Shown here piece by piece: positions 3,428 to 32,210 of a stretch of 54,719 bases of DNA (position 1 is the stretch's first letter; each line of letters opens with the position of its first letter). The stretch is from NCBI GenBank assembly GCA_947630285.1, contig CANRHD010000015.1, forward strand, positions 1 to 54,719, in the 5' to 3' direction. Both the position numbers and the translations under genes were made by a program. This DNA comes from an uncultured Clostridia bacterium. GTDB taxonomy: Bacteria > Bacillota > Clostridia > Oscillospirales > Acutalibacteraceae. Below the pieces are notes generated by a model. It did not search any database. It had not been told where the DNA came from and was given only the letters and a program-made list of their open reading frames with translations.

Positions 3428-3441
3428 CTTGAGGTAATACT

Positions 3442-9063: not shown

Positions 9064-9067
9064 GCTA

Positions 9068-9095
9068 TTGACAAAGCCGAATATTTATTTAAAAT
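9068..9095 (+). promoter_or_regulatory. Promoter of the acyl carrier protein/proS unit
   Basis: Perfect TTGACA at 9068-9073 just after the mutase stop codon, a 16-base spacer, then TAAAAT at 9090-9095, 41 bases before the ATG at 9137. Confidence 0.65.
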
Positions 9096-9136
9096 GTAAT
9101 GTAATCAATAAATTAAATTCATATAAGGAGTTTATT

Positions 9137-9361
9137 ATGATTTTTGAAAAAGTCAGAGACATTATTTGCGAACAGTTTGAAATCGACGCCGACAGCATTA
9201 CGCCCGAAACGGTGATAAGGGAGGACCTTGACGCAGACAGCCTTGATTTGATTGACCTTGTTATGACATTTGAGGACGAGTTTAAAATCGAGGTTCCCGA
9301 CGAGGCAATTTCGGAAATCAAAACTGTGGCGGATATAGTTAAATATATTGAGGAAAACTAA
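9137..9361 (+). CDS. Acyl carrier protein
   Basis: A 74-residue acidic acyl carrier protein. The 4'-phosphopantetheine attachment serine sits in the DADSLDLIDL motif near residue 36; the four-helix carrier length is normal. The ATG at 9137 has AAGGAG six bases upstream; an in-frame start 81 bases earlier lies before the promoter and is rejected. It has its own promoter and is followed after 32 bases by prolyl-tRNA synthetase, not by fatty acid synthesis genes. It may therefore be an accessory carrier rather than the housekeeping AcpP (inference). Confidence 0.9.
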   Translation: MIFEKVRDIICEQFEIDADSITPETVIREDLDADSLDLIDLVMTFEDEFKIEVPDEAISEIKTVADIVKYIEEN

Positions 9362-9393
9362 ACGCATAAGCGGAAGGATAAGGATTTAAAGCA

Positions 9394-10830
9394 ATGGCAG
9401 AACAGAAGAAAATGGTTGAGGAAATAACCTCGATGGACGAGGATTTCGCAAAGTGGTACACCGATGTTGTCAAAAAGGCCGAGCTTTGCGAATATACAAG
9501 CATAAAGGGCTGTATCGTACTAAGGCCCTACGGCTATGCAATCTGGGAAAACATACAGAAGATTATGGACGGTATGTTTAAGGCTTCGGGTCATGAAAAT
9601 GTGTGTATGCCCATGTTCATACCCGAGAGTCTTTTGGAAAAGGAAAAGGACCATGTTGCAGGCTTTGCCCCCGAGGTTGCATGGGTAACTCACGGAGGCA
9701 GTGAAAAGCTTGAAGAACGCCTTTGCGTAAGACCCACTTCGGAAACGCTTTTCTGCGAGCATTATAAGAGCGTGGTACAGTCGTACCGTGATTTGCCCAA
9801 GCTTTACAACCAGTGGGTTTCGGTTGTGCGCTGGGAAAAGACTACAAGACCTTTCCTCAGAACAAGGGAATTTTGGTGGCAGGAGGGTCATACCATACAC
9901 GCCACGGCACAAGAAGCGCAGGAAGAAACAATCAAAATGCTGAACATTTATGCGGACTTCTGCGAAAATGTGCTTGCAATCCCCGTTGTTAAGGGAGTTA
10001 AGACGGAAAAGGAAAGGTTTGCCGGTGCGGAAAACACCTATACCATAGAGGCCCTTATGCACGACGGAAAAGCCCTCCAGTCCGGCACATCTCACTATTT
10101 CGGGGACGGCTTTGCCAGGGCTTTCCAAATACAGTTTACCGATAAGGATAACAAGCTGAAATATCCTTTCCAGACCTCGTGGGGTTCGTCTACAAGACTT
10201 ATCGGGGCTATTATTATGGCTCACGGCGACAACAACGGGCTTGTGCTTCCGCCGAAGATTGCGCCCATACAGACGGTCGTTGTCCCCATAGCGTACCATA
10301 AGCCCGGCGTGCTTGAAAAGGCGGACGAAATTACCGAAAGGCTTTCAAAGATTTGCAGAGTAAAGTGCGACAAAACGGACAATACGCCCGGTTGGAAATT
10401 TGCCGAGTATGAAATGAAAGGCGTGCCGCTCCGTCTGGAGATAGGCCCCAAGGATATAGAGAAAAATCAATGCGTCATAGTACGCCGTGACAACAGGGAA
10501 AAGATTTTTGTAAGCCTTGACGAGCTTGAGGCAAAGATTCCCGAATTGCTCAACGCCGTTCACGACGCCCTTTACGCCAACGCTCTTGAGAGAAGAGAAA
10601 AAATGACCTATACCGCTCACAGCTTTGAGGAGCTGAAGGATATTGCGGACAATAAGCCCGGCTTTATCAAGGCGATGTGGTGCGGCGACAGAGCTTGCGA
10701 GGACAGGCTCAAGGAGGAGGCCGGCGTTACCTCCCGCTGTATCCCCTTTGAGCAGAGCGAAATTTCCGACAAATGCGTTTGCTGCGGCAAGCCTGCGAAA
10801 AAAATGCTTTACTGGGGCAAGGCTTATTAA
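9394..10830 (+). CDS. proS: Prolyl-tRNA synthetase, archaeal/eukaryotic (type 3) form
   Basis: A 478-residue class II aminoacyl-tRNA synthetase that charges tRNA-Pro with proline. Class II motif 2 ([21 protein letters not shown]), the RPTSE proline-binding loop near residue 113 and motif 3 ([10 protein letters not shown]) are present. The C-terminal zinc-binding domain with paired cysteines (CVCC...) and terminal ...WGKAY is typical of the shorter type 3 enzyme found in archaea, eukaryotes and many Firmicutes. The bacterial-type editing insertion is absent. It is followed by a strong terminator. Confidence 0.95.
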
Positions 10831-11025: not shown

Positions 11026-11098
11026 ATTATAAAAATATTATCTATACAAAGCGGCAAAAAAATGTTAAAATAATATATAAATGTTTCGGAGGGGCAAA

Positions 11099-11809
11099 AT
11101 GGAGCTTTTTGACATAGCGGGTCTGAAAGTTAATATGGACTGCAAAGAGGGCTTGGTTTACGAGCGCTCAAGAGCTTATCTTGCCGATGACCAGAACGCC
11201 CGTGCGGATTTTTTTGTCGGGGTACCCGAACAGACGCTTAGAGAACGGCACGAAAAGCTTCCGCACCTGAGCTTGGACGAATGTGATTATATATACTGCG
11301 GCGAGATGTTTTACTATAAACTGCTTGACTATAACGGTATGCTTCTGCACGCTTCGGCGGTGGAAAAGGACGGGTATGCCTATCTTTTTTCTGCCAAGAG
11401 CGGAGTCGGCAAGTCCACGCATACGGCTCTGTGGCAAAAGGTTTTTGACGGCGTCAGAATAATAAACGACGACAAGCCGGCTATCAGAAAAATTGACGGC
11501 GTCCTTTGCGCCTGCGGCACTCCGTTCAGCGGCAAGGACGATAAAAGCATAAATGTCTGCGTTCCGCTTCGGGCAGTAGTTTTTCTTGAAAGGGCGCAGG
11601 AAAACAGCATAAAAAGAATTGAACCCAAAGAGGCTATACCGCTGTTTATGTCGCAGACCCTGAGGCCGTCTCGCAGGGAACAGATGTTTAAGCTTTTGGA
11701 TATGCTCGATACCGTGCTGAAAGAAATACCTGTTTTTAAACTTAAATGCAATATGTCGGACGATGCTGCCAATACTGCATATAAGGGAGTAAACGATAAT
11801 TTAAAGTAA
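11099..11809 (+). CDS. HprK-like (HPr kinase homologue) peptide-cluster kinase
   Basis: A 236-residue protein related to the C-terminal kinase domain of HPr kinase/phosphorylase. The P-loop AKSGVGKSTH is at about residues 100-109, inside the typical HASAV...LFSAKSGVGKST context, followed by INDDKPAIR (metal-binding acidic residues) and GTPFSGKD. It lacks the N-terminal HprK domain, so it is unlikely to be the catabolite-control kinase. Close relatives occur in lasso and other RiPP clusters, where some phosphorylate the precursor peptide (established for the Paenibacillus type). The ATG at 11099 follows GGAGGGG; an ATG six codons upstream has no site. Confidence 0.75.
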   Translation: MELFDIAGLKVNMDCKEGLVYERSRAYLADDQNARADFFVGVPEQTLRERHEKLPHLSLDECDYIYCGEMFYYKLLDYNGMLLHASAVEKDGYAYLFSAKSGVGKSTHTALWQKVFDGVRIINDDKPAIRKIDGVLCACGTPFSGKDDKSINVCVPLRAVVFLERAQENSIKRIEPKEAIPLFMSQTLRPSRREQMFKLLDMLDTVLKEIPVFKLKCNMSDDAANTAYKGVNDNLK

Positions 11810-11828
11810 AAGTCATCGGAGGTAAATT

Positions 11829-12095
11829 ATGAAAATCAAAGAGGGTTATACGCTAAGGGAAATAGCCGGCAGCAGCGTTGTTGTTCCGCTTGGCGACACG
11901 CAGGTAAGCTTTAAGGGAATTATGACCTTAAACGGCGTGGGCGCTTTCGTATGGAAAATCCTTGAAAACGGAGCGGACAGGGAAGAAATTATAGAAAAAG
12001 TTTTGGCGGAATACGATGTCGATGAGGAAACCGCCTCTGCCGATATTGACAGATACCTTATGAAACTTCGTGCCGAGAAAATAATTGAGGACTGA
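11829..12095 (+). CDS. PqqD family protein (RiPP recognition element)
   Basis: An 88-residue PqqD-fold protein: a short beta region, then TLNGVGAFVWKILENG, the hallmark of the family (normally LN-x2-G-x2-IW), and a helical tail with DVDEETASADIDRYL. PqqD-like domains bind leader peptides of ribosomally made, modified peptides and present them to tailoring enzymes. A CGGAGG site lies upstream. It is placed between the kinase and the peptidase genes with short gaps. No radical SAM enzyme, macrolactam synthetase or transglutaminase-like protease is nearby, so the usual partner is missing. Confidence 0.85.
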   Translation: MKIKEGYTLREIAGSSVVVPLGDTQVSFKGIMTLNGVGAFVWKILENGADREEIIEKVLAEYDVDEETASADIDRYLMKLRAEKIIED

Positions 12096-12100
12096 TTTTC

Positions 12101-12544
12101 GTGGGAAACGGATACAGGCTTGAGGATCTGTTGCCCGTAATTGAGGAAAAGCTCAAATCGGGCGGCTTGTTTGAAATAAATATAAACGGAACGAGTATGC
12201 TCCCTTTACTCGTTGAGAAAAGGGATACGGTAATACTCGGGCCTTTTGACGGCAGGATAAAAAAATACGATATTCCTTTATACAGGCGTAAAAACGGCGC
12301 CTTTGTACTGCACAGGGCGGTTAAGGTTTATGAAAATACCTTTTGCGCCTGCGGCGACAATCAATGGGTCGTTGAAAAGGATATTGAATACGGGCAGATT
12401 ATAGGCGTAGTCAGGGCAGTTGTAAGAAAGGGCAAAAAAATCCCCGTAAGCTCTTTCGGATACGGGCTTTACTGCCGGCTGTGGGAGCTTCTCAGACCGG
12501 TGAGGAAGTATATAGTTAAAATCAGAGGGAAACTGAAAAGATGA
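12101..12544 (+). CDS. S24/S26-type signal peptidase-like protein
   Basis: A 147-residue protein with the signal-peptidase/LexA beta fold. The serine motif NGTSMLPLL is at about residues 29-37 and the second box contains LHRAV near residue 70. At that place bacterial SPase I carries lysine; here a histidine is found, as in ER-type/SipW-like enzymes (Ser-His catalysis). A further CACGDNQ...VE motif matches the GDN box. There is no clear N-terminal membrane anchor; the last third is basic and weakly hydrophobic. Start is GTG at 12101. The stop overlaps the ABC transporter start. It may cut a leader peptide or bind it; function unproven. Confidence 0.65.
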   Translation: MGNGYRLEDLLPVIEEKLKSGGLFEININGTSMLPLLVEKRDTVILGPFDGRIKKYDIPLYRRKNGAFVLHRAVKVYENTFCACGDNQWVVEKDIEYGQIIGVVRAVVRKGKKIPVSSFGYGLYCRLWELLRPVRKYIVKIRGKLKR

Positions 12545-14208
12545 ACAATTCGTCCGCTCTAAAATGGATAGGGGCAAATTCAAAAAAAGAAATACCGGGT
12601 CTGGTGTCGCTTGTACTGTGCGACGCCCTGTACTCGGCTTGCTCCGTTTCAATGGCGGTGTTCGCAAAGCTTATTATCGACTCGGCGCAGAGGGGCGCAA
12701 GGCAGGAGCTTATAAAATACGCCGCCGTGCTTTTGGGCGTCATTGTTTTTCAGATAGTACTGCGGCTCTCTTCAAAGGCTGTTGAGGTGAGAATTTCGGG
12801 CAGGCTTGAAATGAGATACAAAACAAGCCTTTTTTCAAATATACTTGAAAAGGATTTCCTTAAAATAAGCCGTTATCACAGCGGCGAGCTTATGACAAGG
12901 CTCACAAGCGATGTCGGCGTTATAAGCCAGGCCGTCGTCTCTATAGCTCCGAGCGTCGTCTCGATTTTGACAAGGCTTATCTGCGCCTTTGCGGTGCTGT
13001 TTTTCCTTGACAGGAACTTTGCAATGCTATTCCTTGCAGCAGGAATTTTGCTGTTTGTCTTTACAAGAATTTTCCGAGGCTCAATGAAAAAGCTTCACAG
13101 GGAGGTTCAGGAAACCGACGGCAGGGTTCGCTCCTTTATGCAGGAGACGGTCGAGAGCATACTTGTGGTTAAGATTTTCGGCGTAAGCAAAAAAATGCAG
13201 AAGGAGTCCGAAAACTTACAGCTTGAAAATTACAGGGCAAAAATCAAAAAGAACCGCTGGTCGATATTCGCAAATCTCGGCTTTTCCGCCGCATTTTCGT
13301 TCGGCTATCTGTTTGCGCTTGTCTGGAGCGCCGTAAGGCTTTGCCTTGGCGGCATAACCTTCGGCACGCTCACGGCGGTTATGCAGCTTGTCAATCAGGT
13401 TCAGACGCCGTTTACTTCGCTCTCCGCCGTTGTGCCGCAGTACTATTCGATGCTCGCCTCAGCCGAGAGGATTATCGAGATAGAAAATATTGCTTGCAGT
13501 AATGCGAAAAACAGCCCCGATATTGATATTAAAAAGCTTTACGACGGGCTTGAGAGCATAAGCTTCAGCGGCGTTTCGTTCGGCTACGGCAACGACGCCG
13601 TTATCGAGAGCGGCAGTTTTGAAATAGAAAAAAACGACTTCATAGTAATTTCGGGTATTTCCGGCATAGGCAAAAGCACCCTGTTTAAGCTCCTTGTGGG
13701 AGTTATTCCGCCGGATTCGGGCAAAATATGCCTGAAATCGTGCGGCGGCGAATACCCCGTAGACAAATACACAAGGCCGATGTTCGCCTATGTTCCGCAG
13801 GGTAATATGCTCTTCAGCGGAACGATAAGGGACAATATAAGGTTTGTAAACGAAAAGGCTACGGACGAGGAAATTATGCAGGCGGCAAAGATAAGCTGTG
13901 CCGATGAATTTATAAACGGACTGCCCGATAAGCTCGACACCGTTTTGCTTGAGGGCGGACAGGGCCTGTCCGAGGGGCAGATACAAAGGCTTGCAATCGC
14001 ACGGGCAATACTTACATATGCGCCCGTACTTCTGCTTGACGAGGCTACATCGGCTCTCGACGAGGCAACGGAAAAGAAGCTGCTTGACAACATAAAGGCG
14101 CTTAAACAAAAGACCTGCATAATTATTTCCCATAAAACGGCGGCATACGAAATATGCAATAAGGAACTTAAAATAGAGAATAAAAATATTAAAATCAGAA
14201 ATCTGTAG
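12541..14208 (+). CDS. ABC exporter, fused permease and ATPase
   Basis: A 555-residue ABC half-transporter. The N-terminal ~310 residues form a six-helix exporter membrane domain; the C-terminal ATPase has Walker A GISGIGKST at about 372-380, signature LSEGQ near 478 and Walker B VLLLDEATSALD near 495. No C39 peptidase domain is present, so any leader must be removed by another protein, perhaps the upstream S24/S26-like gene. ATG overlaps the upstream stop. As last gene of the cluster it most likely exports the product of the putative peptide system. A lipid or drug exporter remains possible. Confidence 0.8.
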   Translation: MNNSSALKWIGANSKKEIPGLVSLVLCDALYSACSVSMAVFAKLIIDSAQRGARQELIKYAAVLLGVIVFQIVLRLSSKAVEVRISGRLEMRYKTSLFSNILEKDFLKISRYHSGELMTRLTSDVGVISQAVVSIAPSVVSILTRLICAFAVLFFLDRNFAMLFLAAGILLFVFTRIFRGSMKKLHREVQETDGRVRSFMQETVESILVVKIFGVSKKMQKESENLQLENYRAKIKKNRWSIFANLGFSAAFSFGYLFALVWSAVRLCLGGITFGTLTAVMQLVNQVQTPFTSLSAVVPQYYSMLASAERIIEIENIACSNAKNSPDIDIKKLYDGLESISFSGVSFGYGNDAVIESGSFEIEKNDFIVISGISGIGKSTLFKLLVGVIPPDSGKICLKSCGGEYPVDKYTRPMFAYVPQGNMLFSGTIRDNIRFVNEKATDEEIMQAAKISCADEFINGLPDKLDTVLLEGGQGLSEGQIQRLAIARAILTYAPVLLLDEATSALDEATEKKLLDNIKALKQKTCIIISHKTAAYEICNKELKIENKNIKIRNL

Positions 14209-15990: not shown

Positions 15991-16110
15991 AAGTTGTAAG
16001 TATATGCGTGAACATATCGCTGTTTCGGATATGGTATTTTTAATGGAAATTCTGTTAAAAAATATATCGCTTTTTTTCTTAATCTGAATTTGTTTTGGAG
16101 GGTCTTCCGT

Positions 16111-16629
16111 ATGGGTATGGCTGATATGGACATAAAGGATTTGTTTAAAAAATTCAAATCCGGAAGCGGTAAGAAAGATGCAAGAAAAGGCAACTCTATT
16201 ACAGGCTTTTTTGACAAAAACCCGAAGATGAAAATTATTTTGCCGGCTCTCGGCATCTTAATTGCGGTTGTGGTCGCCGTTCTGATTATCCTTTCGGGCA
16301 CGGGCGCCGAAACGGAGCTTGAAGAGGGCGCTACGGTCGCCGGTCAGGCGGTTGCGGTGTTGCCGGAGATAGAGCGGACGCAGGGCGAAACGGCCGCAGA
16401 CAATGTTGACCCCTTTGCGGAAGATGTCATAGCAAATGCCAAGATAACCGGTATGATTTATAATTCGGACGGATATTGGACGGCGGTAGTTCAAACGCCA
16501 TACGCCTCTTACACTCTTCAGGTAGGCGATTATGTGGGAAGCTCCAAGTGGCTTGTAGAGTCAATTACAGACTCAACGGTTACGGTTTCTCTCGGCGAAA
16601 AGACAAGAACATTAGAAATGAAAAAATAA
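16111..16629 (+). CDS. PilP-like pilus assembly protein
   Basis: A 172-residue protein with a basic cytoplasmic N-terminus, one membrane helix at about residues 44-62 and an external C-terminal part. The last ~70 residues (DPFAEDVIANAKITGMIY...YTLQVGDYV...TVSLGEKTRTLEMKK) follow the PilP/GspC homology-region pattern: a small beta domain that in Gram-negative pili links PilN/PilO to the secretin. The ATG at 16111 has TGGAGGG eight bases upstream; the longer TTG-started frame is rejected. First gene of the pilus operon, directly before the secretin-N-like protein, as pilP precedes pilQ elsewhere. Gram-negative PilP is a lipoprotein; this one is a membrane-anchored variant. Confidence 0.65.
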   Translation: MGMADMDIKDLFKKFKSGSGKKDARKGNSITGFFDKNPKMKIILPALGILIAVVVAVLIILSGTGAETELEEGATVAGQAVAVLPEIERTQGETAADNVDPFAEDVIANAKITGMIYNSDGYWTAVVQTPYASYTLQVGDYVGSSKWLVESITDSTVTVSLGEKTRTLEMKK

Positions 16630-16678: not shown

Positions 16679-18427
16679 ATGTACGGTTCAAAAAAGAGTT
16701 TAAAAGCATTTTTAGTTGCTTTGCTGGCGGTTGTTTTGCTTGCCAACGCAGTGATGCCCGTTACGGTTATGGGCTCAAGTAACGACACAAGCACCGATTA
16801 TCAGTACTATGTTATTAAATCGGGCGACAGTCTTACCGGCGTTGCAAAGAAATACAATGTTTCCGCAAGCGACATAATGCTTGCAAATAAGCTGTCGAAT
16901 GCCGACAAGCTTTATGCCGGCAGGGTAATTAAAATACCGCTCAGCTCCGCTACGGAGGAGAGGTCATGGTTCTCGACAAGGCTCACGCTCAACCTCAACG
17001 AGGCCGATGTCAGGGACGCCCTCACGGCTATTGCAAGGAACGCCGGTTACACCGTAATTTTTGACGGCCAGCCCAGTCAGAAGGTCACGGTAAACCTTGA
17101 AAATGTATCACCCCTTAAAGCAGTTGACTATGTTACAAGACTTGCCGATCTCTCATATCTCAAGGACGGCAACACCATTATGGTAGGCACGGCGGCCGAC
17201 CTCAACAGTACTTTCGTTGACAAGGTCGTTATGACTAAGTTTAAATTCAAGTACATTACGGTTGACACTCTTAAAACTCAGGCAGGGTCGCTCGGGCTTG
17301 AAAATGTGCAGTATGTCGATACTCCCCAAGACAGCAGTACGGTTTATATAAGCGCTTACCCCAAGGAGCTTGCCAAAATTAAAGAGCTTATTGATATACT
17401 TGATGTAAGCAGTAACATCACGGCGGGCGCTACGCTCATAACATCGAATTTCACCTCTATTCAGCTTGAAAATATCGACGCAACCGAGTTCAGCGGACTG
17501 CTTGCAAACCTCGGTATGGACGCCGGCATAGTACTTGCCTCAAGACCCTATACGCTCTATACATATGTTACGGGTGCGGCCTTGGCGGATATAAAGGCAA
17601 TTAAGAGCATTGTAGACAAACCCCTTACCGGCAAGAACCTTACAAGCTCAAAGCAGGAGGTAGTTGAAAACACCACCGCTCCCGGCGAGCCGACGACCTC
17701 CGCACAGCAGAATAACAATAACAACAGCGGAAATTCCGGCAGTACCTCCACACCGTCAACGCCCGGCAGCACTACGACGCAGGAAAATACAATCCTCAGG
17801 GAAATTGCCCTTGAGTACATAGACAGAGCGGCGGCGGTTGAGATTCTCGGAAGCTTCCCCTATGATGTAACGGTTTACGGACCCGAAAAGATGACAAAGA
17901 AAATTTGGCTTATGGGTACGGAATCGGAAGTAAACAAGGCAGAGGGCAAAATCAAAGAATTTGATACCGAAAGCTACGCCAACAGCCTGAGACTTGAAAA
18001 CCAGTTCTTCATCTATGACCTTAAGAACTGCACGGCTCAGGAAATGTTAGACAGGCTTGCAAATATTGATGTCGGAGATGTAACATTCAAGACAAACGCT
18101 TATCCGACGGTTTCCAAGGCGCTTATTGTATGCTGTGAATATTCAAGGCAGGAACAGATTAAGGCCTTGCTTGACGCACTTGATGCGGCAACCACCTCCG
18201 AAATAGAGTACAGGGCGGTTGAAAGCACCGTAAACGCTTCAATCGGCAGGTCGAGAATTGAGGCTCTGCGTATAACGCATCCCGAAATCCCTGCGACGGC
18301 GGAGTTCCAGTTCGTAAGCGTAACCTCTAAGACCGGAGATACGACGACCTGTACGACATATGTAAAGGCGACGCCCGAAATGGTTGACTACATCAAGGCT
18401 CTGCTTGCCGAAATGGACGCAGCTTAA
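16679..18427 (+). CDS. LysM plus secretin-N-domain (PilQ-like) protein without secretin barrel
   Basis: A 582-residue exported protein. It has a signal peptide (residues 1-31), a LysM peptidoglycan-binding domain (about 42-88: YYVIKSGDSL...VIKIP) and an STN/N0-like domain (about 98-176: NLNEADVRDALTAIARNAGYTVIFD). Several ring-building secretin-N repeats follow, recognisable by final blocks such as KIKELIDILDV, DIKAIKSIVDKP, KAEGKIKEFD and QIKALLDALDA. A Ser/Thr/Asn-rich linker interrupts them at about 330-365. The C-terminal ~50 residues are not a secretin barrel, and none is found elsewhere. It would give a PilQ-like stack of rings fixed to peptidoglycan. Its neighbours are PilP-like and PilT. 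Confidence 0.8.
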   Translation: MYGSKKSLKAFLVALLAVVLLANAVMPVTVMGSSNDTSTDYQYYVIKSGDSLTGVAKKYNVSASDIMLANKLSNADKLYAGRVIKIPLSSATEERSWFSTRLTLNLNEADVRDALTAIARNAGYTVIFDGQPSQKVTVNLENVSPLKAVDYVTRLADLSYLKDGNTIMVGTAADLNSTFVDKVVMTKFKFKYITVDTLKTQAGSLGLENVQYVDTPQDSSTVYISAYPKELAKIKELIDILDVSSNITAGATLITSNFTSIQLENIDATEFSGLLANLGMDAGIVLASRPYTLYTYVTGAALADIKAIKSIVDKPLTGKNLTSSKQEVVENTTAPGEPTTSAQQNNNNNSGNSGSTSTPSTPGSTTTQENTILREIALEYIDRAAAVEILGSFPYDVTVYGPEKMTKKIWLMGTESEVNKAEGKIKEFDTESYANSLRLENQFFIYDLKNCTAQEMLDRLANIDVGDVTFKTNAYPTVSKALIVCCEYSRQEQIKALLDALDAATTSEIEYRAVESTVNASIGRSRIEALRITHPEIPATAEFQFVSVTSKTGDTTTCTTYVKATPEMVDYIKALLAEMDAA

Positions 18428-18541: not shown

Positions 18542-19642
18542 TTGTTTTTTGAAGGAAAAGAAAGCCGTTTCCCTTGTACTTTGCACGACCTTTTGAGGAA
18601 AACGGTTGAAATCGGAGGATCGGACCTGCACCTTGTAGCAGGGGTGGAACCCTGCATCAGGGTAAACGGAAATCTTAAAAGGCAGGAAGATTATCCCAAG
18701 CTTTTACCTGAAGACATCGAAAATATGCTCTTATCGGTAATTTCTCCCGTGCAGAAAAAAAGATTTGAAGAGGACTGGGAGCTTGACCTTGCGGTTGCGG
18801 TTCCCGACTGCGCCAGGTTCAGGGGCAATGTCATTGTTCAGCGAGGCTCTTTGGCGGCGGTTTTCAGGGCTATTCCCTTTGAAATCCCCGACCTTGATAA
18901 GCTGGGGCTTCCCAGCGATATAAAAAGGCTTTGCAACCTCCCCAGAGGACTGGTCCTCGTAACGGGCCCCACGGGTTCCGGTAAGTCAACGACTCTCGCT
19001 TCCATGATAAAATATATCAACGAGCGGTACGAAACAAATGTAGTTACGGTCGAGGACCCCATAGAATTTTTACATACACATATTAAATCGACTATCAGGC
19101 AGAGGGAAATAGGCGCAGACACACATTCCTTTGCCAACGCCTTGAGAACGGTGCTTCGTCACGACCCGGACACTATTATGATAGGTGAAATGCGTGACCC
19201 CGAAAGTATCTCTATAGCGGTTACGGCGGCGGAAACGGGACACCTTGTGTTTTCAACGCTTCATACGCAGACGGCGCCCATGACCGTTTCCCGTATCATC
19301 GACTCTTTCCCGGAGGGGCAAAAGGGTCAGATAAGACAGCAGTTGGCAAACTCGTTAAAGGCGGTTATTTCGCAGCAGCTTATTCCCACCATTAACGGAA
19401 AGGGCAGGGTTGTTGCCGTAGAATATATGATAGATACTCCGTCGGTTAAAAACCTCATCAGAGAGGAAAAGGAGCATCAGCTTTACGCTTCCATGCAGAC
19501 GGGTCAGATGCAGGGCATGCAGACCATGGACCAGGCTCTCATAAGGCTTTACAGGGAGCAGAAAATTTCTAAGGACTCGGTTATTGAATTTTGCGTAGAT
19601 GAAAAGGAAGTAAGAAGACTGCTTGCAACGGGCGGATTTTAA
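18542..19642 (+). CDS. pilT: Type IV pilus retraction ATPase PilT
   Basis: A 366-residue hexameric secretion ATPase. Walker A GPTGSGKST is at about 142-150, followed by an Asp box (VTVEDPIEF), Walker B (DPDTIMIGEMRD) and His box (GHLVFSTLHTQTA). The C-terminal NLIREEK motif corresponds to the AIRNLIRE motif that marks retraction ATPases and is needed for retraction in studied PilT. It drives pilus depolymerisation at the inner face of the membrane. The TTG start is the only early start; AAGGAG lies 12 bases upstream, which is rather far. Presence of PilT implies twitching-type dynamic pili. Confidence 0.92.
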   Translation: MFFEGKESRFPCTLHDLLRKTVEIGGSDLHLVAGVEPCIRVNGNLKRQEDYPKLLPEDIENMLLSVISPVQKKRFEEDWELDLAVAVPDCARFRGNVIVQRGSLAAVFRAIPFEIPDLDKLGLPSDIKRLCNLPRGLVLVTGPTGSGKSTTLASMIKYINERYETNVVTVEDPIEFLHTHIKSTIRQREIGADTHSFANALRTVLRHDPDTIMIGEMRDPESISIAVTAAETGHLVFSTLHTQTAPMTVSRIIDSFPEGQKGQIRQQLANSLKAVISQQLIPTINGKGRVVAVEYMIDTPSVKNLIREEKEHQLYASMQTGQMQGMQTMDQALIRLYREQKISKDSVIEFCVDEKEVRRLLATGGF

Positions 19643-19678: not shown

Positions 19679-20884
19679 TTGGCATCCTTTGTATATGGCG
19701 GTATGAATAGGCAGGGACAGAATGTTCACGGTGAGGTTGTCGCTGAAAATTCATCGGAAGCTATGGATAAGCTTCGTGAGGCCGGAATTGTTGTCACAGA
19801 AATCAAGGAAAAAACCGTAAACGAAAGAAAAAAGGCGAGGGGCAAAAAGGTCGGCATCGAAGATGTTGCGATTTTTGCAAGGCAGATGGCCGCAATGATG
19901 TCGGCGGGCGTTCCCGTAACAAGGGCGCTTTCCACGCTGTCAAAGCAGACCTCGAACGCCACACTTTCCGCCGCAATTTCGGAAATCTGCGAAAATGTTG
20001 AAAGCGGTATGCCTTTGTCCGACGCTTTTGCGCAGTACCCGAAGATTTTTAACAATTTGTTTGTTGCCATGATTGCTACGGGCGAGGTCGGCGGTATTCT
20101 TGAACAGTCGCTTTCGAGCCTTGCCAATCAGCTTCAGAAGCAAAAGGCGCTTAACGACAACATAAAATCCGCCGTTTCATATCCCAAAAACATAGGAATG
20201 TTTGCCATTGTCCTTTTGATTGCAATGCTTGTGTTCATGGTTCCGACCTTCCAGGGTATGATCCCCGACGGAACGGAGTTAAACGCCATCACACAGTTTA
20301 TTTTCAATGTTTCCACAAGCCTGAGGACGGAGTGGTATTTCTGGATACTCGCCATAGCCGCAATCGGCACGGTTCTGTTCTTCATCTTGAAAAGCAAGCC
20401 CGTACATATCTTTTGGGAAAACCACAAGCTGTCGGCCCCTATAGTCGGCGAATTAAACACAAAACAGGTTATAGCGCGTTTTTGCCGTACACTTGCAACG
20501 CTTCTTGCAGGCGGTGTTACGGCGGTTGAGGCTTTGCAGAGCGCCGGCCCCACATCGGGAAGCGATTTGATTGCAAAGGCCGTTGAGAACGCTATTGAAG
20601 ATATTGAGGAAGGTAAGGCGGTAGCAGACTCTCTTGACAAAAGCGGTTTGTTCCCTCCCATGGTAATCGGTATGATAGCCATAGGCGAAGAGGCCGGTTC
20701 ACTTCCCGAAATGCTTGATAAGGTTGCGGAGTTTTACGAGGAAGATGTTGAAACCCTTTCAAGAAACTTAAAGGCTATGATAGAACCTATTGCGCTTATA
20801 GGAATAGGCGGCATAGTCGGCGCAATGATTATAGCTCTTTACTTACCGATATTCCAGGCTTCGACATCAGTTGAAGGCTATTAA
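19679..20884 (+). CDS. pilC: Type IV pilus platform protein PilC
   Basis: A 401-residue inner-membrane platform protein of the GspF/PilC family: two T2SSF domains (about 65-190 and 265-390), each a helical bundle followed by membrane helices (about 170-190, 215-240 and 370-395). The family motifs FARQMAAMMSAGVPVTRAL and FCRTLATLLAGGVTAVEAL are in the first and second halves. It receives force from the PilB and PilT ATPases. TTG start with GAAGGGGG upstream. Between pilT and pilM as in many clostridial loci. Confidence 0.93.
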   Translation: MASFVYGGMNRQGQNVHGEVVAENSSEAMDKLREAGIVVTEIKEKTVNERKKARGKKVGIEDVAIFARQMAAMMSAGVPVTRALSTLSKQTSNATLSAAISEICENVESGMPLSDAFAQYPKIFNNLFVAMIATGEVGGILEQSLSSLANQLQKQKALNDNIKSAVSYPKNIGMFAIVLLIAMLVFMVPTFQGMIPDGTELNAITQFIFNVSTSLRTEWYFWILAIAAIGTVLFFILKSKPVHIFWENHKLSAPIVGELNTKQVIARFCRTLATLLAGGVTAVEALQSAGPTSGSDLIAKAVENAIEDIEEGKAVADSLDKSGLFPPMVIGMIAIGEEAGSLPEMLDKVAEFYEEDVETLSRNLKAMIEPIALIGIGGIVGAMIIALYLPIFQASTSVEGY

Positions 20885-20897
20885 TGGGGGACGAAAT

Positions 20898-21878
20898 ATG
20901 GCTAAAATTAAAAGTGTGATCGGCTTTGAGGTCGATTCAAAGGAGATAAGGGCAACCGAAGTCAGCCGTAACAACGGCGTTTACGAAATAGTTGCCTGCG
21001 GAAATATTCCTCTCCCGGAGGATACGATAGAGGAAGGCTTTATCAGGGACCAGGAGGCTTTCAGCATTGCGCTTACGGAGCTTATTCAAAGCGGCGGCTT
21101 CAGGTCGTCGGATATAGTAGTCGGCATCAACAACGAGAATGTTATCATGAGATATGCGACTTTCCCGAAGGTTGAGGACGACAAATTGAGGAATATGGTC
21201 CTTTTGCAGGCTCAGGAGTTTATACCCATTCCCGTTCAGGAAATGGAAATAGACTATGTTATAGCAGGCCACGGCGTCAACGACGAGGGGCAGGAGACGG
21301 TTAATGTGCTTCTTGTTGCGGCAAGGCGGAATATGATAGAGCAGTATATAAATGTGCTTTCTGCCTCCAGGCTTCAGGTGGTAGATGTGGACGCAACGCT
21401 GTTGTCATATTGCAGGGCGCTCCGGTCCGGGGTTGTGGGCGAAGAAAAATACGCCGTTTTGAATATGAACGACGATTTGCTCAATTTCCTTGTTATTCAG
21501 GGCGACGAGGTTTCAATGGTTCGTTCGATCAATATCCCCGACAGAGTGGTTGACAATGTGAAAAGGCTTTACGGCAGCGAGCCGGGCTATGAATTTGAGA
21601 AAGAGGATACAGAAGCTATCGGTTCAATGCTCGGAGGCGAAACCTCCTCCTCGGTCGGTTACTATGCCATGCAGATGGGAATAGCTCCTATCGAACATAT
21701 ATATTTCCTGACTACGGCGCCAAATTCCGAGGAGCTGTTAAAGGAAATAAGCGATATGGTCAGCCTGCCCGTAACCATTCCCGATTTTTACACAACAAGC
21801 AATTTCGGGCTTGAACAAAAGGTTGTAAATAAATTTACGGGCTGCATAGGCCTTGCAATTCAGGCATTGGAGGGATAA
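20898..21878 (+). CDS. pilM: PilM-like actin-fold pilus assembly protein
   Basis: A 326-residue cytoplasmic protein of the PilM family (FtsA/actin-like fold). The N-terminal phosphate-1 region reads VIGFEVDSKEIRATEV, and the segments VVGINNENVIMRYATFPKV and MVLLQAQEFIPIPVQEMEIDY are typical of PilM. PilM binds ATP and the N-terminal tail of PilN (established in Thermus/Neisseria). The ATG at 20898 follows GGGGGA; the longer frame from the end of pilC is rejected. Directly followed by the PilN-like gene. Confidence 0.88.
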   Translation: MAKIKSVIGFEVDSKEIRATEVSRNNGVYEIVACGNIPLPEDTIEEGFIRDQEAFSIALTELIQSGGFRSSDIVVGINNENVIMRYATFPKVEDDKLRNMVLLQAQEFIPIPVQEMEIDYVIAGHGVNDEGQETVNVLLVAARRNMIEQYINVLSASRLQVVDVDATLLSYCRALRSGVVGEEKYAVLNMNDDLLNFLVIQGDEVSMVRSINIPDRVVDNVKRLYGSEPGYEFEKEDTEAIGSMLGGETSSSVGYYAMQMGIAPIEHIYFLTTAPNSEELLKEISDMVSLPVTIPDFYTTSNFGLEQKVVNKFTGCIGLAIQALEG

Positions 21879-21881: not shown

Positions 21882-22622
21882 GTGTTCAAAGTTAGTTTGT
21901 TACCCGACAGCTATAGGCGTCATCTTGAGGGTAAAAAGAAAATTGACCTTATTTCAAAGGTTGCTCTCGTTGTCCTTGTTTGCCTGTTTATAGTTTACGG
22001 CGGCGTAATGATAAAGCAGCAGATTCTTAAATCCAGGCTTTCGTCAATCGAGTCGAAAAATCATGAGCTTGAGAATGAATTTCCGGCTTTGCAGGAATAT
22101 CAGCTTATATATGACGACCTTGTTTCGGCTCAAAAGATGATAGAGAGCATTTTGCCCAAGGATTCGGAGGCGGTTGACTTTATTACCACCGTTTCAAATG
22201 TAACTCCCGACTATGTTCAGATTACGCAGATAGACCTTGAGGACTGGTTCAGCAAGGGCATTTGCACGCTCACCTGCACGGTTCAGGATTATCAGGATTA
22301 CAAGGATTATGTCGAACTGTTTAAAACCGAGGAAATGCAGAAAACCGTTAAACGGGTCGAAACAACCGGCATCACAAGAACCGTAAACGCAGAGGGCGAT
22401 GAAAAATCGGTTACCTTTACATTGGCATTAAGCCTGTCCAATGCGCTTGAAGTCTCCACCGTTGCGCCCAAATACGAAACGGTTACGGACGATAAGGGCG
22501 AGGCCGTTACAAACGATTCCGGCGAGGTTCAGACCACCGATGTCGCAAACACGACAACGGCCGCCGCACAGTCGCAGGACGGCTCCGAAACGACGGCAAC
22601 AACAGCGGCAGAGGAGGGTTAA
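21882..22622 (+). CDS. pilN: PilN-like pilus assembly protein
   Basis: A 246-residue bitopic membrane protein. The N-terminal FKVSLLPDSYR matches the conserved 'INLLP' PilM-binding motif of PilN. One membrane helix at about 25-46 and a coiled coil (about 50-90) follow, then a ferredoxin-like domain. The C-terminal ~50 residues are Thr/Ala/Glu-rich and low in complexity. GTG start three bases after the pilM stop. It forms the alignment complex with PilO and PilM. Confidence 0.82.
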   Translation: MFKVSLLPDSYRRHLEGKKKIDLISKVALVVLVCLFIVYGGVMIKQQILKSRLSSIESKNHELENEFPALQEYQLIYDDLVSAQKMIESILPKDSEAVDFITTVSNVTPDYVQITQIDLEDWFSKGICTLTCTVQDYQDYKDYVELFKTEEMQKTVKRVETTGITRTVNAEGDEKSVTFTLALSLSNALEVSTVAPKYETVTDDKGEAVTNDSGEVQTTDVANTTTAAAQSQDGSETTATTAAEEG

Positions 22623-22625: not shown

Positions 22626-23222
22626 ATGGCGATAAGCGATGTTATCAATAAAAAGAAAAAAACAAGCGAAGCCGAGGGCGGAAAATCCGAGAAGAAAAAT
22701 ATTTTTGAAGATGTCAGATTAGTAATTGCCATACTTGTCGTTTTAATCCTTGCCCTTATAGGACTTATAGTTTACGGCAGCAGTCAGATAAAAGAGACTC
22801 AAAAGCAAATAAGCGAAATAAAGGTAGAGTATTCAAACAACCAAAAGGCGATAAATCAGCTCCTTGCATTGAAAAAGCAGAGCGCAATTTACAAAGCCCG
22901 TAAGGACGAATACGATGAAATGATAAAATCCGAACCTCTCGACCAGATGAAGATTATGATAGATATTGAGAACAGGGTCGAAAAATACAACTGTTCTCTC
23001 GCCTCTGTGGAATTTGACGAGACGGTGGATACCGGGCTTGTCAAGCAGGTAAACGCCTATATTACCATTACGGGCGGATTTAACGATATTATGCGCTTCT
23101 GTCGGGACACGGTGAACGAAAAGCAGATAAAACGAATAGACAAAATCAACATTACAAAAGAGAGCGAAGACAGCAATACCATGAAAGCCGAAATAACCGT
23201 TGTGGAGTTTTCAAGGGGTTAA
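22626..23222 (+). CDS. pilO: PilO-like pilus assembly protein
   Basis: A 198-residue bitopic protein: short charged N-terminus, membrane helix at about 31-50, coiled coil at about 55-100, then a small alpha/beta domain (ASVEFDETVDTG...YITITGGFNDIMRFCRDTV) that fits the PilO ferredoxin-like fold. Sequence similarity to known PilO is low, so the call rests on size, topology and its place behind pilN. It heterodimerises with PilN in known systems. Confidence 0.72.
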   Translation: MAISDVINKKKKTSEAEGGKSEKKNIFEDVRLVIAILVVLILALIGLIVYGSSQIKETQKQISEIKVEYSNNQKAINQLLALKKQSAIYKARKDEYDEMIKSEPLDQMKIMIDIENRVEKYNCSLASVEFDETVDTGLVKQVNAYITITGGFNDIMRFCRDTVNEKQIKRIDKINITKESEDSNTMKAEITVVEFSRG

Positions 23223-23260: not shown

Positions 23261-24952
23261 ATGGCCAACAGCATTACACCTATTCCGGGCAGTCTCGGAG
23301 CAAGGCTTATTGAGGCGGGAATTATTACAACGGAGCAGCTTGCGGAAGCTCTTGAAATACAAAAGACAAGCAAAAACCTTATAGGTACAATACTTACTCA
23401 ATTAGGCTATTGCACTGAGGACGATATTGCAAGAATGCTTGCAAAGAAAACCGGATATAAATATGTTTCAATCAATGAAATCGGTGTAAATGTTTCGGTT
23501 GCAAACCTTATAACTCCCGAAATGGCTCTTAGGAATAATATCCTTCCGCTTTACCAGGAGGGTAAAACGGTATATGTTGCGATGAAAAATCCCAACGATA
23601 TTATTACCATAGACAACCTGCACCTTATGACGAACCTTGAGATTTGCCCCGTAGTTGTCCCCGATATGGAGCTTGCGGCCGCTATCGAGAATTTTGCGAA
23701 TATGAACTCCACGCTTGATAATTTTGACGAGGACGACGACTCGGCAAGCGACAGCGATGTTTCGGAGGAGTATTCCATTGACGATAAGCCTGCCGTTCAG
23801 CTTGTAAATCAGGTTATAAATAACGCTATTAAGGCAGGGGCTTCGGATATTCATATCGAACCGCTTGAAAAATATTTAAGGGTTCGTTTCAGAATTGACG
23901 GCGTTTTGCAGGAAATAATGCAAAATTCCATTAAGCTTTTCCCTTCGGTCGTTTCGAGGGTTAAGGTTTTGGGCGGTATGGATATTGCCGAAAAGCGTGT
24001 TCCACAGGACGGACGCGCAACCGTCAGGTTTGAGGACAGAACGCTCGATATACGAATTGCCACTATGCCCACCGTTTTCGGTGAAAAAATAGTTCTTCGA
24101 CTGCTTGAAAGATCGCAGGGCGTCGTTCAGCTTAAGGACCTGCACTTTTCTCCCAGGCAGTTTGACAGGTTCAGCAACGCCATACATATGCCCTATGGCT
24201 TCCTGCTCGTTACAGGCCCCACGGGTTCAGGTAAATCCACAACGCTTTATGCTACGCTTGACGAGATAAGCTCCGACGACAAGAATACAATTACCCTTGA
24301 GGACCCCGTAGAGCGCAGAATGTCGGGAATAAACCAGGTGCAGATGAACAACCGTGCAGGCATGACCTTTGCTGCGGCGCTGCGTTCGGTTTTGCGTTCC
24401 GACCCCGATATAGTAATGGTCGGTGAAATCCGTGACGCCGAAACCGCCAAGATAGCTATTGAGGCGTCTCTTACAGGACATATGGTACTTTCCACTTTGC
24501 ATACAAACGACGCTCCCAGCGCCGTTACCCGTCTTGACGAAATGGGCGTACAGCCTTTCCTTACGGCTTCGTCGCTGGTAGGCGTTCTCGCACAGAGGCT
24601 TGTGCGTAAGCTCTGCCCTAAGTGCAAGGAGGAGTACGAAATAAGCCGTGAGGATATTAAAAAAATCATTCCGGATTTTGACAGTTACGGATACGACGGC
24701 GACAGCTTTAAATTGTATAAGGCCAACGGCTGTATCACCTGCAACAACACAGGTTATAAAGGACGAGAGGCCGTATTTGAATTTCTTACCGTTACCGAGG
24801 AAATGAAACGCCTTATTCTTGACAGGGCAACGGTTTCCGAGGTTAAAGCCTTGGCGTGCAGTCAGGGCATGCACACCCTTAAGGACGAGGGAATTTTCAA
24901 AGTTATGGAGGGCAGAACCTCGCTTGAAGAACTGATGAGAGTTATAGTTTAA
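23261..24952 (+). CDS. pilB: Type IV pilus extension ATPase PilB
   Basis: A 563-residue GspE/PilB ATPase. The N-terminal MshEN/GspE-N domain occupies residues 1-150 (LGARLIEAGIITTEQLAEAL, IGTILTQLGYC). It is followed by an acidic linker and the ATPase core with Walker A GPTGSGKST at about 319-327, Asp box ITLEDPVE, Walker B DPDIVMVGEIRD and His box GHMVLSTLHTNDA. A four-cysteine zinc site (CPKC...CITC, about 452-494) is present. The MshEN domain binds cyclic di-GMP in several relatives; whether it does here is inference. It powers pilus extension. It is followed by the minor pilin genes. Confidence 0.94.
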   Translation: MANSITPIPGSLGARLIEAGIITTEQLAEALEIQKTSKNLIGTILTQLGYCTEDDIARMLAKKTGYKYVSINEIGVNVSVANLITPEMALRNNILPLYQEGKTVYVAMKNPNDIITIDNLHLMTNLEICPVVVPDMELAAAIENFANMNSTLDNFDEDDDSASDSDVSEEYSIDDKPAVQLVNQVINNAIKAGASDIHIEPLEKYLRVRFRIDGVLQEIMQNSIKLFPSVVSRVKVLGGMDIAEKRVPQDGRATVRFEDRTLDIRIATMPTVFGEKIVLRLLERSQGVVQLKDLHFSPRQFDRFSNAIHMPYGFLLVTGPTGSGKSTTLYATLDEISSDDKNTITLEDPVERRMSGINQVQMNNRAGMTFAAALRSVLRSDPDIVMVGEIRDAETAKIAIEASLTGHMVLSTLHTNDAPSAVTRLDEMGVQPFLTASSLVGVLAQRLVRKLCPKCKEEYEISREDIKKIIPDFDSYGYDGDSFKLYKANGCITCNNTGYKGREAVFEFLTVTEEMKRLILDRATVSEVKALACSQGMHTLKDEGIFKVMEGRTSLEELMRVIV

Positions 24953-24991: not shown

Positions 24992-26737
24992 ATGAAGACG
25001 AAGTTAAAAGAAAACAACGGATTTGCTATTGTTTCCGTGCTTTTCTTGCTTGTTGTGCTTTCTATGATGGCTACGGCTATGTTCCTGTATAGTATAACGA
25101 GCCTCAGATCCGTTCGCTATCTTTCGGACAGGAAAAAGGCCGAATATCTTGCACAGGCAGGCGTAGAGTCCGCTTCATACGCCTTTCAGCTTGCCGTTAA
25201 AAGTCAGGAAACTGCCGCCAAGGACCTTATAGTACAGACGGTGAACGAGGGCGACATAATTAATTCCAATAAGGTCTATATGGTCTACAAGGACGGCGCA
25301 TATAGTTATGTTGAAGATGTAAGCTCATATAAAGACGATGAAATAATCGGCTATTATGAGGTTGAAATAGAAAGCAAACCCATGAAAATCGTTCAAAAGG
25401 CAATTAAGAACGACAAGACCGCCGGTAGCTTGAGCTCCCCCTCCGGTACGGAAGCTTCGTTTAAGCAGTACCTTGTAGAGATAAGCGAGGGTCAGCGTGT
25501 GTTTACCGCCACGGGTCACGCTTATAAAAATAACGCAACAGCCAGAAAAAAGGCTTATATTTCCGAACCTTCGCAGGGCTTGGGAAGATTTTATGACGCC
25601 GAAACGGGCATTATAGACGCAAGCCTCAGCGGCGGCAGCAAAACCCTTACCTATACCGACGCAAACGGCAATACCGAGACACAATCCGTACCCGTTGCGA
25701 CAAACTCGGCTTATTCCGTACTCGGCGAATACAAAACGGCGTCTCAGTTTACCATTAATTACTCGCTTTTTGAGAATGTGCCTATTCTTAATAAGTTCTT
25801 AGCAACTGCCGGCAGTATTCCTATTCCTGTTCCGGGCGGCAGCCGTACAATCCCGATACTTATGGGCTTTACCTCGGGAAATATGATACTTAACAGCCCC
25901 AAATCGGGCGAGATTAAATTTAAAGAAAATCAGGATAATATGGTGGCGCTTATAGGCGAAACCAACCTGTTCGTAAACTCAAATGTAGATGTAACCCCCT
26001 CAATGTCAAAGTTTAACACGCTTTTCCTCAGGGGTAACAACATAGTTATAGGCGGCGACATTGAAATGTATGTTTACGGCTTCCAAAAGCTGAAGCTGTT
26101 TCAGGGCCTGTCTAATCTTGTTACGGCGTTTGGCCAAAGGTATGCTTTGGGAAGCGTTGTTATCGGAACTCCCAATCCCGAAACCTCTACAAATACCGAC
26201 CCGGTAAACAACAACAATATTTACCGTGCCAAGGTCTTTAAACTCAACGAAAGCACGGGCGTTTACGAAAAGGAAAAGGAAGTAAACGGCTACGGGAAAT
26301 GCGGCAAGGTGTTCTTCGGCGGCGATGTTTTCGTCAATGTTGAGATACCAAATGTCGGCACCTACAGGTACAAGGTATTTTCCTCGGGCGACACCTATTA
26401 TTTCGATGATGATTTGCCTGCATACGAGGGCGGACCTGTAGGCTACGGCATAGATTTGTTCAAGTATTTTGTAGACAATGCGGTTGCCTCCGGCAAATAC
26501 ACGGAAAATGTCAACGAAAGGCTCGGTCAGATTATGGCTCTCTACTATTCGGGTACGGGCAAAGCGCCGACAAGCTATGTAACGGGTGTAGAAAACTCGG
26601 AGGGAAAACCCACAGGCGTTATAACATATAATGCAATGAGAAAGATTGATATGGATAAATTCGGTCAGGACACATACGCTTCGCTTATTCCGCCCGACGC
26701 AACGGACGCAACCTCGCTGAAGTGGATTTTGGCTTGA
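24992..26737 (+). CDS. PilX-like minor pilin, large
   Basis: A 581-residue pilin-like protein. A short positive leader ends in NNG; cleavage would expose F11 at the start of a hydrophobic helix (FAIVSVLFLLVVLSMMATAMF), followed by the amphipathic segment KKAEYLAQAGVESASYAFQLA typical of PilX/GspK-type minor pilins. Position +5 is serine, not glutamate, as seen in initiating tip pilins of the GspK/PilX kind. The large C-terminal domain, about 500 residues, is not recognised and is rich in Gly, Asn, Thr. It probably sits at the pilus tip with the two following gene products. Confidence 0.7.
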   Translation: MKTKLKENNGFAIVSVLFLLVVLSMMATAMFLYSITSLRSVRYLSDRKKAEYLAQAGVESASYAFQLAVKSQETAAKDLIVQTVNEGDIINSNKVYMVYKDGAYSYVEDVSSYKDDEIIGYYEVEIESKPMKIVQKAIKNDKTAGSLSSPSGTEASFKQYLVEISEGQRVFTATGHAYKNNATARKKAYISEPSQGLGRFYDAETGIIDASLSGGSKTLTYTDANGNTETQSVPVATNSAYSVLGEYKTASQFTINYSLFENVPILNKFLATAGSIPIPVPGGSRTIPILMGFTSGNMILNSPKSGEIKFKENQDNMVALIGETNLFVNSNVDVTPSMSKFNTLFLRGNNIVIGGDIEMYVYGFQKLKLFQGLSNLVTAFGQRYALGSVVIGTPNPETSTNTDPVNNNNIYRAKVFKLNESTGVYEKEKEVNGYGKCGKVFFGGDVFVNVEIPNVGTYRYKVFSSGDTYYFDDDLPAYEGGPVGYGIDLFKYFVDNAVASGKYTENVNERLGQIMALYYSGTGKAPTSYVTGVENSEGKPTGVITYNAMRKIDMDKFGQDTYASLIPPDATDATSLKWILA

Positions 26738-26771
26738 CGCACGGAAAAACATTGAAAAAGGAGGAAACTTT

Positions 26772-30161: not shown

Positions 30162-30201
30162 AATTTCCGCAGTGCTCATTTTGTGAATGGAGGGCAAGGT
30201 A

Positions 30202-31353: not shown

Positions 31354-31397
31354 TATTGACAGTTTGTTTTTTTCATAATTTAATCCTTTCTGAAGGG

Positions 31398-31437
31398 CAG
31401 CGCCTTGTCGGTAATCGGCAGGGCGTTGTTCTTTTTT
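31398..31437 (+). terminator. Terminator of the pilus operon
   Basis: Seven-pair stem CAGCGCC/GGCGTTG with one G-U pair, 17-base loop, then TTC and six T; 45 bases past the stop codon at 31353. Confidence 0.8.
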
Positions 31438-31485
31438 GCAATATAAAAACGGGCTTTTAAATCAGTGCAAATCCCCTGTAAATGC

Positions 31486-31514
31486 TTGACAAATGTTTAA
31501 CATATGAATATAAT
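31486..31514 (+). promoter_or_regulatory. Consensus promoter of the first small pilin gene
   Basis: Perfect TTGACA (31486-31491), 17-base spacer, perfect TATAAT (31509-31514). The leader to the ATG is about 68 bases. Confidence 0.85.
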
Positions 31515-31588
31515 AGTACTGTTAAGATGTACGGAAAATTCACACTTTTTAAACGAAATCGGAACGCATTTCGGTTGGGGGAAATTAT

Positions 31589-32005: not shown

Positions 32006-32075
32006 TAAATATTTAGAAAATTAAACGGTTTTTTAGAAAAATTTAAAAATTTTTTACATTTTTTAATAAAAGTAC

Positions 32076-32104: not shown

Positions 32105-32110
32105 GGGTAC

Positions 32111-32177: not shown

Positions 32178-32210
32178 ACAAAAAATTTTTTAAAAAGGGA
32201 GATTTTTACT

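Follow-up and report, generated by a model that had tools for sequence, protein, structure and literature searches.

The window, the whole 54,719-nucleotide stretch of DNA analysed here (contig CANRHD010000015.1 of an uncultured Clostridia bacterium from the gut, assembly GCA_947630285.1), carries a type IVa pilus operon in which the gene between a PilP-like gene and pilT encodes a protein that we term the N-protein. Profile comparisons and gene neighbourhood make it almost certain that the N-protein is homologous to the N-module of the secretin PilQ and is the partner of the PilP-like protein encoded directly upstream. Our searches confirm that the PilQ/PilP module has a genuine, conserved variant that lacks the barrel, in Bacillota for which these searches revealed no outer-membrane markers. 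We put at roughly two in three the probability that this variant acts as a collar docked on the PilP-like protein, guiding or anchoring the pilus within peptidoglycan.

A barrel-less homologue of the PilQ N-module

The N-protein is encoded by an open reading frame (ORF) that occupies exactly 16679-18427 (582 amino acids, ATG start), with the following parts:

16679-18427, forward strand: LysM-N0-N1..N5 protein, a homologue of the N-module of PilQ and GspD without a barrel, predicted to be secreted (family matches, alignments, profile comparison)
16679-16774, forward strand: signal peptide, residues ~1-32 (hydrophobic windows begin at residues 4-16; by eye without a lipobox)
16808-16939, forward strand: LysM, residues 44-87 (PF01476, E 4.2e-14)
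16973-17215, forward strand: N0/STN domain, residues 99-179 (PF07660, E 3.8e-8; profile A4 against the N0 of PilQ 4ar0, E 6.2e-9)
17225-17407, forward strand: N1-like repeat N1, residues 183-243 (PF03958 at residues 218-244; hhalign)
17447-17623, forward strand: N1-like repeat N2, residues 257-315 (hhalign against N1, N3 and N4, 94-99%)
17624-17788, forward strand: low-complexity linker rich in T, S, N and P, residues 316-370 (alignments A1, A3 and A4)
17789-17971, forward strand: N1-like repeat N3, residues 371-431 (hhalign)
17999-18190, forward strand: N1-like repeat N4, residues 441-504 (hhalign)
18200-18424, forward strand: N1-like repeat N5, residues 508-582, reaching the protein end without a barrel (hhalign, weaker, above shuffles)

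The original prediction had claimed a signal peptide, a LysM, an STN/N0-type domain and several N1-like repeats, and each was recovered, with family matches and hhalign setting the number of repeats at five. In the profile search that it had proposed, LysM (52.7 bits, cut-off 20.9) and STN (33.4 bits, cut-off 28.4) lie above their Pfam cut-offs and Secretin_N lies just below its own (27.7 against 28.2); in relatives of the N-protein Secretin_N rises above the cut-off (e.g. 72.7 and 70.1 bits). Secretin (PF00263) gave no match, being absent among the nine families that match the N-protein at E values up to 10, a range in which the HMMER filters drop most matches above ~0.1. Across the alignment of 20 members from the window genus (E <= 0.1), LysM and STN were found in all 20 and Secretin_N in 19. 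The signal peptide is the sole hydrophobic stretch (19-residue mean hydropathy > 1.6), and the mature protein thus has no visible transmembrane helix.

Profile-profile comparison with hhalign related the repeats to one another, with probabilities of 98-99% for pairs among N1, N2 and N3, 86-96% for N4 against N1-N3, and 23-89% for N5 against N1-N4. All ten pairs scored above their own column-shuffled controls (for the N5 pairs, 20 shuffles per pair, of which one in 20 gave no result). N0 appeared unrelated to the repeats (0.2-2.1%, with three of five scores slightly above shuffles), as expected because N0 is a different fold. The linker between N2 and N3 is kept in the window genus and missing from the aligned members of other families.

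Genome counts were organized by kinship codes, and "class", "family" and "phylum" are used here in that sense (f for family, g for genus). All 20 genus members have a frame without inner stops and share many invariant residues, and the N-protein is conserved across 15 family codes; the intact frames and this conservation exclude a chance ORF. A decayed pseudogene was also considered and rejected. In one locus, L057 (G157:C17), the N-protein gene contains an in-frame TAA and its neighbours read through, which may reflect phase variation, decay or an assembly error.

The genus profile, LysM included, matched chiefly LysM proteins in the PDB, plus the PilQ N0 structure 4ar0 at 2.3e-5. Profile A4, a 19-row alignment of the N-domains with LysM left out, met secretins (PilQ, GspD, HofQ) in 18 of 19 sequences at E <= 1, the best being 4ar0 at E 6.2e-9; the remaining match, at E 0.38, was set aside as chance. 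Several GspD N-domains align with A4 at once (query 161-366 to chain 107-338). The PilQ chains presumably include those of N. meningitidis, P. aeruginosa and V. cholerae. The NCBIfam models for full proteins lie out of reach, with 28 of 284.35 bits for PilQ (TIGR02515) and 42 of 351.35 bits for GspD (TIGR02517). On these grounds, the N-protein is homologous to the secretin N-module yet is no secretin by its defining barrel. The search and the PilP-like neighbour thus bear out the proposal of a PilQ N-domain homologue in a pil operon, and, as far as sequence goes, the repeats are profile kin of the PilQ and GspD N-domains, as predicted for ring-building motifs.

The protein encoded immediately upstream is the second half of the module:

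16090-16629, forward strand: PilP-like protein with one transmembrane helix (~44-77), a linker and a C-terminal PilP/GspC-HR-type domain (~106-178) (PF04351, profile, hydropathy)

Judged from its relatives, its true start is probably an ATG a few codons further in. The PF04351 match of the window protein (E 0.0066) is below cut-off, at 16.8 bits against 25.6. A profile of 30 PilP-like rows (A5, out of 37 listed ORFs, with L030 and L044, two of the 21 named loci, left out) nonetheless matched PilP 2ivw (3.7e-5), PilP 4av2_M (7.1e-5), and GspC 2lnv (0.001), 6hcg_e (0.049) and 3oss_C (0.29), so that PilP and GspC make up five of its nine PDB matches, including the top four. At E <= 0.1, 12 of the 30 relatives match Pfam PilP and nine match T2SSC (PF11356).

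A single ORF encodes both proteins in two f31/g77 genomes (L107, L108) and in three f152/g289 genomes (L139, L140, L142), by eye with no signal peptide between the PilP-like and N-domain parts. The fused ORF of L108 is cut by the contig end, and that of L107, whose tail piece lies on a different contig (L116), stops ~90 bases short of the end of its own. Fusion in two lineages is strong evidence that the two proteins work together. The globular domain of diderm PilP binds the secretin N0 (PMC4471445). In L106, the PilP-like protein (9056-9481, G202) has a lipobox-like ISGC start, as in diderm PilP lipoproteins, and beside it is encoded a short, 255-residue LysM-N0-N1 form.

A barrel, whether in the C-terminal part of the N-protein or elsewhere in the genome, had been named in the original prediction as a refuting result; it was looked for with PF00263 and not found: the home genome (99.24% complete; six of 14 controls positive) has no match, and no genome of the 391 in the class has one above cut-off, 11 having weaker matches. 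Nine of these (loci L090-L093 and L095-L099, in nine genomes) were read as membrane permeases of one type, and G091 (L094) and G219 were left unread. A permease loop resembling VPVLGDIPVIG mimics the secretin motif and can lead to false positives when Clostridia are searched for secretins; the family of these permeases is our presumption.

Occurrence among relatives

Within the genus, the N-protein was found in 20 of 36 genomes, including the home genome; G005 was left out of this count, as its matches, read from sequence, are LysM repeats of a lysozyme-like protein. Window-type PilC (>= 60% identity) occurs in 22 of the 36, including all 20 with the N-protein. In the two PilC-positive genomes without it, contigs finish inside pilT, beside the expected site, and the 14 genomes without PilC also have no N-protein.

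In the class, profile A3 matched 19 of 391 genomes, including our own, and the other 18 were read. One of these, G237 (L109), was not counted as a family member, being a short contig-end fragment and possibly a chimera. Among 17 assessable loci, the PilP-like gene is adjacent in 15 and fused in two, and pilT follows directly in 14, after a tail piece on another contig in two (G102, G175) and out of sight in one (G180). Outside the genus, G052 (L059) has a diverged N-protein of 457 amino acids beside a PilP-like gene near a contig end, with no Pfam match at 0.001. The STN family search alone found six of 391 genomes, three above cut-off; G303, a genome of 78% completeness and 6% contamination, has strong STN matches that were judged probable contaminants, and G159 (L058) was dropped as none of 18 window proteins matches near its weak match.

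In the wider phylum, profile A4 matched 65 of 279 genomes; of the 64 other than our own, 18 were read and 46 were left unread. Twelve of the 18 other-class loci encode barrel-less proteins (nine with an adjacent PilP-like gene, three fused) and six encode proteins that end in a secretin-type barrel; five of these six were searched and score above the PF00263 cut-off, and the barrel of the sixth (L155) was recognised by eye. PF00263 scored above cut-off in none of the 12 barrel-less genomes (one has a match below it) versus five of five searched PilQ-bearing genomes. The members with a LysM belong to the window family, f36, part of f63, f82 and f130, and no LysM was detected in the rest; a LysM profile built from the N-protein family revealed no separate LysM ORF of at least 80 amino acids in L100-L116 or L138-L155. 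In L149 (6343-7806, G626), an InlB B-repeat-like domain (PF18998) lies near the end of an N-protein with fewer N repeats, perhaps another wall-facing add-on.

A tree was built on N0-N1 (39 rows, 161 columns) from six barrel-bearing PilQs and 33 barrel-less proteins, and one branch (100/100) parts the two groups. This suggests a single origin of the barrel-less form, which is not proven since the PilQ sample is small and all from the same phylum. LysM requires at least five changes on the tree, two of them forced by starred branches, and fusion requires a minimum of two origins, of which the starred branches alone force only one. L059 and L151 form long branches.

A putative collar for a retractable pilus

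We propose that the N-protein is a PilQ-type secretin N-module minus the membrane barrel, with a LysM where many diderm PilQs have an AMIN domain. Secreted over a single membrane, it would dock through N0 on the PilP-like membrane protein and thereby be linked to PilM-PilN-PilO, and its five N1-like repeats would stack as an oligomeric collar, or rings, round the pilus path. The LysM, where present, would fix the collar in peptidoglycan. A retractable pilus, built by PilB and PilC and pulled back by PilT, would then pass through the collar, which may keep a path through the wall open and give the motor a wall anchor. Oligomerisation, docking, LysM binding and pilus passage are all predicted here from sequence. 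In the literature, the AMIN domain at the N terminus of diderm PilQ is thought to bind peptidoglycan (PMC7545093), pilus width and wall pores are both put near 6 nm, and the hydrolase LytF of S. sanguinis is argued to help the pilus through the wall (PMC13192262).

Several points weigh against this reading. The N-protein is uncommon, with matches in 19 of the 391 class genomes, compared with 248 of 391 that have a PilM_2 match (191 above cut-off), a family that also matches other actin-like proteins. LysM is missing from many relatives (f31, part of f63 and all but one of the 12 barrel-less proteins from other classes) and none was found in a separate ORF of at least 80 amino acids in the loci searched, so wall binding is not essential to the core function; the LysM that the original prediction treated as part of the design therefore holds for the window protein and all 20 genus members, but is not constant in the wider family. 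The number of N-domains varies, down to the 255-residue LysM-N0-N1 form of L106, which fits poorly with a conduit of fixed length. The listed PilP-like scores all fall below the Pfam cut-offs (PF04351/PF11356; few members scored). Some monoderms, S. sanguinis among them, build their pili with neither PilP nor PilQ (PMC6916266, PMC4832360), and a collar is thus not generally needed.

The main rival, which we regard as unlikely though deserving of weight, is that the N-protein is a wall anchor and no conduit: it would tether the PilMNOP base to peptidoglycan in the manner of a TsaP-like scaffold, with the wall bearing the retraction force and the pilus not encircled. Such a role accords with the N-terminal LysM of all 20 genus members and with the place of pilT, which in all 21 named loci is the pil gene that follows, and the ring of the N-protein is itself a prediction. 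TsaP (e.g. of Myxococcus) likewise binds the wall at the pilus base (PMC7545093, PMC13319060), as is predicted here for the LysM; unlike TsaP, the N-protein joins LysM and N-domains in one chain. What speaks for the collar over a mere tether is that many relatives keep the N-repeats and have no LysM, and that the conserved core consists of ring-building repeats homologous to GspD N-domains rather than of a wall-binding part.

A leftover of an ancestral diderm PilQ, stabilising PilP, PilN and PilO with no part in wall crossing, seems to us improbable. Barrel-bearing and barrel-less forms are only one branch (100/100) apart, PilQ occurs in Negativicutes and Halanaerobiales and a diderm ancestor is possible (PMC5007114), and the stability of PilN-PilO in diderms needs PilP (PMC6916266). 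Against a relic stand the full-length open frame and many invariant residues in all 20 genus members, and the several changes of LysM and fusion that the tree needs, which suggest active use. A historical variant that retains the collar is that, after loss of the outer membrane, monoderm Bacillota with the operon described here kept a distinct barrel-less PilQ lineage together with PilP, now serving as a wall conduit, with LysM added or PilP fused in separate lineages; we hold this tentatively, with rather more doubt than belief.

That the cell is diderm after all, with some other protein as outer-membrane pore, is strongly disfavoured. N-domains elsewhere do belong to outer-membrane secretins, but the 99.24% complete home genome has neither a PF00263 nor an Omp85 match with controls positive, in searches that had lipopolysaccharide (LPS) genes outside their scope. 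Omp85 was also found in none of the 19 other genomes with an N-protein match (G237 among them, the 12 other-class genomes being outside this search), and the home genome has three matches to sortase (PF04203), all in the window. The single membrane argued in the original prediction is supported by these results. Equally remote is a sporulation-type ring protein recruited into the pil operon: SpoIIIAG and GerM are Gram-positive proteins with ring-building motifs, but such proteins are absent from the 19 PDB matches of A4, which comprise only secretins and the one chance match, and the N-protein contains N0 and is partnered by a PilP-like protein.

Relation to known systems and the surrounding genes

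One report from 2011, presumably by Imam et al., bears on the novelty of the N-protein. It described how the pil operons of some Gram-positives (Desulfotomaculum reducens, Pelotomaculum thermopropionicum, Halothermothrix orenii) include homologues of PilQ, whose role its authors did not settle (PMC3244431). The N-protein resembles them as a PilQ homologue in a pil operon, compared by description only; the excerpt of that report makes no mention of a missing barrel, LysM or PilP. The original prediction of an undescribed Gram-positive PilQ counterpart therefore stands for the barrel-less form and not for Gram-positive PilQ homologues as such. We found no account of a barrel-less or LysM-bearing PilQ, its PilP-like partner or their fusions in monoderms within the open-licence literature, which leaves most subscription papers outside; the novelty is only as strong as that search. 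Excerpts of reviews describe PilP and PilQ as absent from Gram-positive piliated species (PMC4471445, PMC6916266), and that of a broad survey describes the secretin as absent in monoderms (PMC6668835). Passage of the pilus through the thick peptidoglycan of Firmicutes and the existence of a channel protein have been called unclear (PMC5007114), and there is speculation on PilO for wall crossing (PMC6916266).

Like type IVa PilQ, the N-protein has an N-terminal module predicted to bind peptidoglycan (AMIN in PilQ, LysM here), N0/STN, N1-type repeats, a PilP partner and a place in a pil operon (PMC7545093); it differs in having no secretin barrel and five N1-like repeats, with no outer membrane found and another gene order. 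The upstream partner is like PilP and GspC in its membrane anchor, linker, small C-terminal domain and profile matches, and differs in its listed scores below the Pfam cut-offs and its fusion to the N-domain protein in two lineages. In Litorilinea (Chloroflexota), a LysM is likewise joined to a pilus alignment protein; there the protein is PilO, and PilP, PilQ and PilM are stated to be absent (PMC13319060). The N-protein family is a testable wall-crossing candidate in several lineages, one that barrel-keyed searches with PF00263 miss, and it shows that one half of the PilPQ machine, made up of PilP and N0, occurs without an outer membrane. Should the barrel have been lost together with the outer membrane, the family bears on the debate about a diderm ancestor. 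If the historical variant described above is true, type IV pili would have a whole class of wall-crossing collars, and the family would preserve a molecular trace of the passage from diderm to monoderm cells.

The full type IVa set of the window comprises PilP-like, N-protein, PilT, PilC, PilM, PilN-like, PilO, PilB, pilin-like genes and PilD, with no secretin. Beyond the two proteins described above, its genes are as follows:

18542-19642, forward strand: PilT-type retraction ATPase (PF00437, E 8.6e-51; named by size, operon order and an AIRNLIRE-like stretch, which we take to be a mark of PilT)
19679-20884, forward strand: PilC platform protein (PF00482, E 4.6e-63)
20871-21878, forward strand: PilM (PF11104, E 8.1e-23)
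21882-22622, forward strand: PilN-like, with one hydrophobic helix and without an informative Pfam match (position, hydropathy)
22626-23222, forward strand: PilO (PF04350, E 4.6e-7)
23261-24952, forward strand: PilB extension ATPase with MshEN (PF00437, E 2.7e-137; PF05157, E 2.2e-13)
24992-32618, forward strand: pilin-like gene group, comprising the next four lines
24992-26737, forward strand: PilX_N-type pilin-like (PF14341, E 0.0013, below cut-off)
26772-30161, forward strand: large pilin-like protein, 1129 amino acids (weak N-methyl match, PF07963, E 0.065)
30187-31353, forward strand: minor pilin-like (PF07963, E 1.4e-7)
31589-32005 and 32154-32618, forward strand: pilins (PF07963, E 8.6e-9 and 2.3e-8)
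35617-36429, forward strand: PilD prepilin peptidase (PF06750, E 1.1e-32; PF01478, E 1.9e-15)

The order pilP-like, N-protein, pilT, pilC, pilM, pilN, pilB is conserved in all 21 named loci, which come from uncultured Clostridia, Clostridiaceae, Clostridiales, Eubacteriales, Oscillospiraceae, Ruminococcaceae, Ruminococcus and one Candidatus Fimenecus (Bacillota, Clostridia); the contigs of L027 and L034 finish inside pilB, and pilO was detected by tblastn in 15 of the 21. The 1129-residue pilin-like protein has a tblastn match in 19 of the 21 and is perhaps a tip adhesin. Between pilC and pilM, L056 has a sigma-factor-like ORF (3209-3913, by eye), and gaps of ~700-800 bases at this position in L110, L111, L138, L140, L141, L142, L143 and L145 may hold the same gene, which, if true, would be a dedicated pilus sigma factor.

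Three further regions of the window were observed. A YfhO-type membrane protein (PF09586, 32764-35613) is encoded between the pilin genes and pilD; proteins of the YfhO kind are associated with sugar modification, and this one is perhaps involved in pilin glycosylation. The region 11081-14208, read by eye, looks like a cassette for exporting a modified peptide: in a row lie a kinase-like protein, a small ORF, a short protein similar to peptidases and an ABC exporter. Finally, the three sortase genes, the sole PF04203 matches of the genome, stand in a row at 46954-50929.

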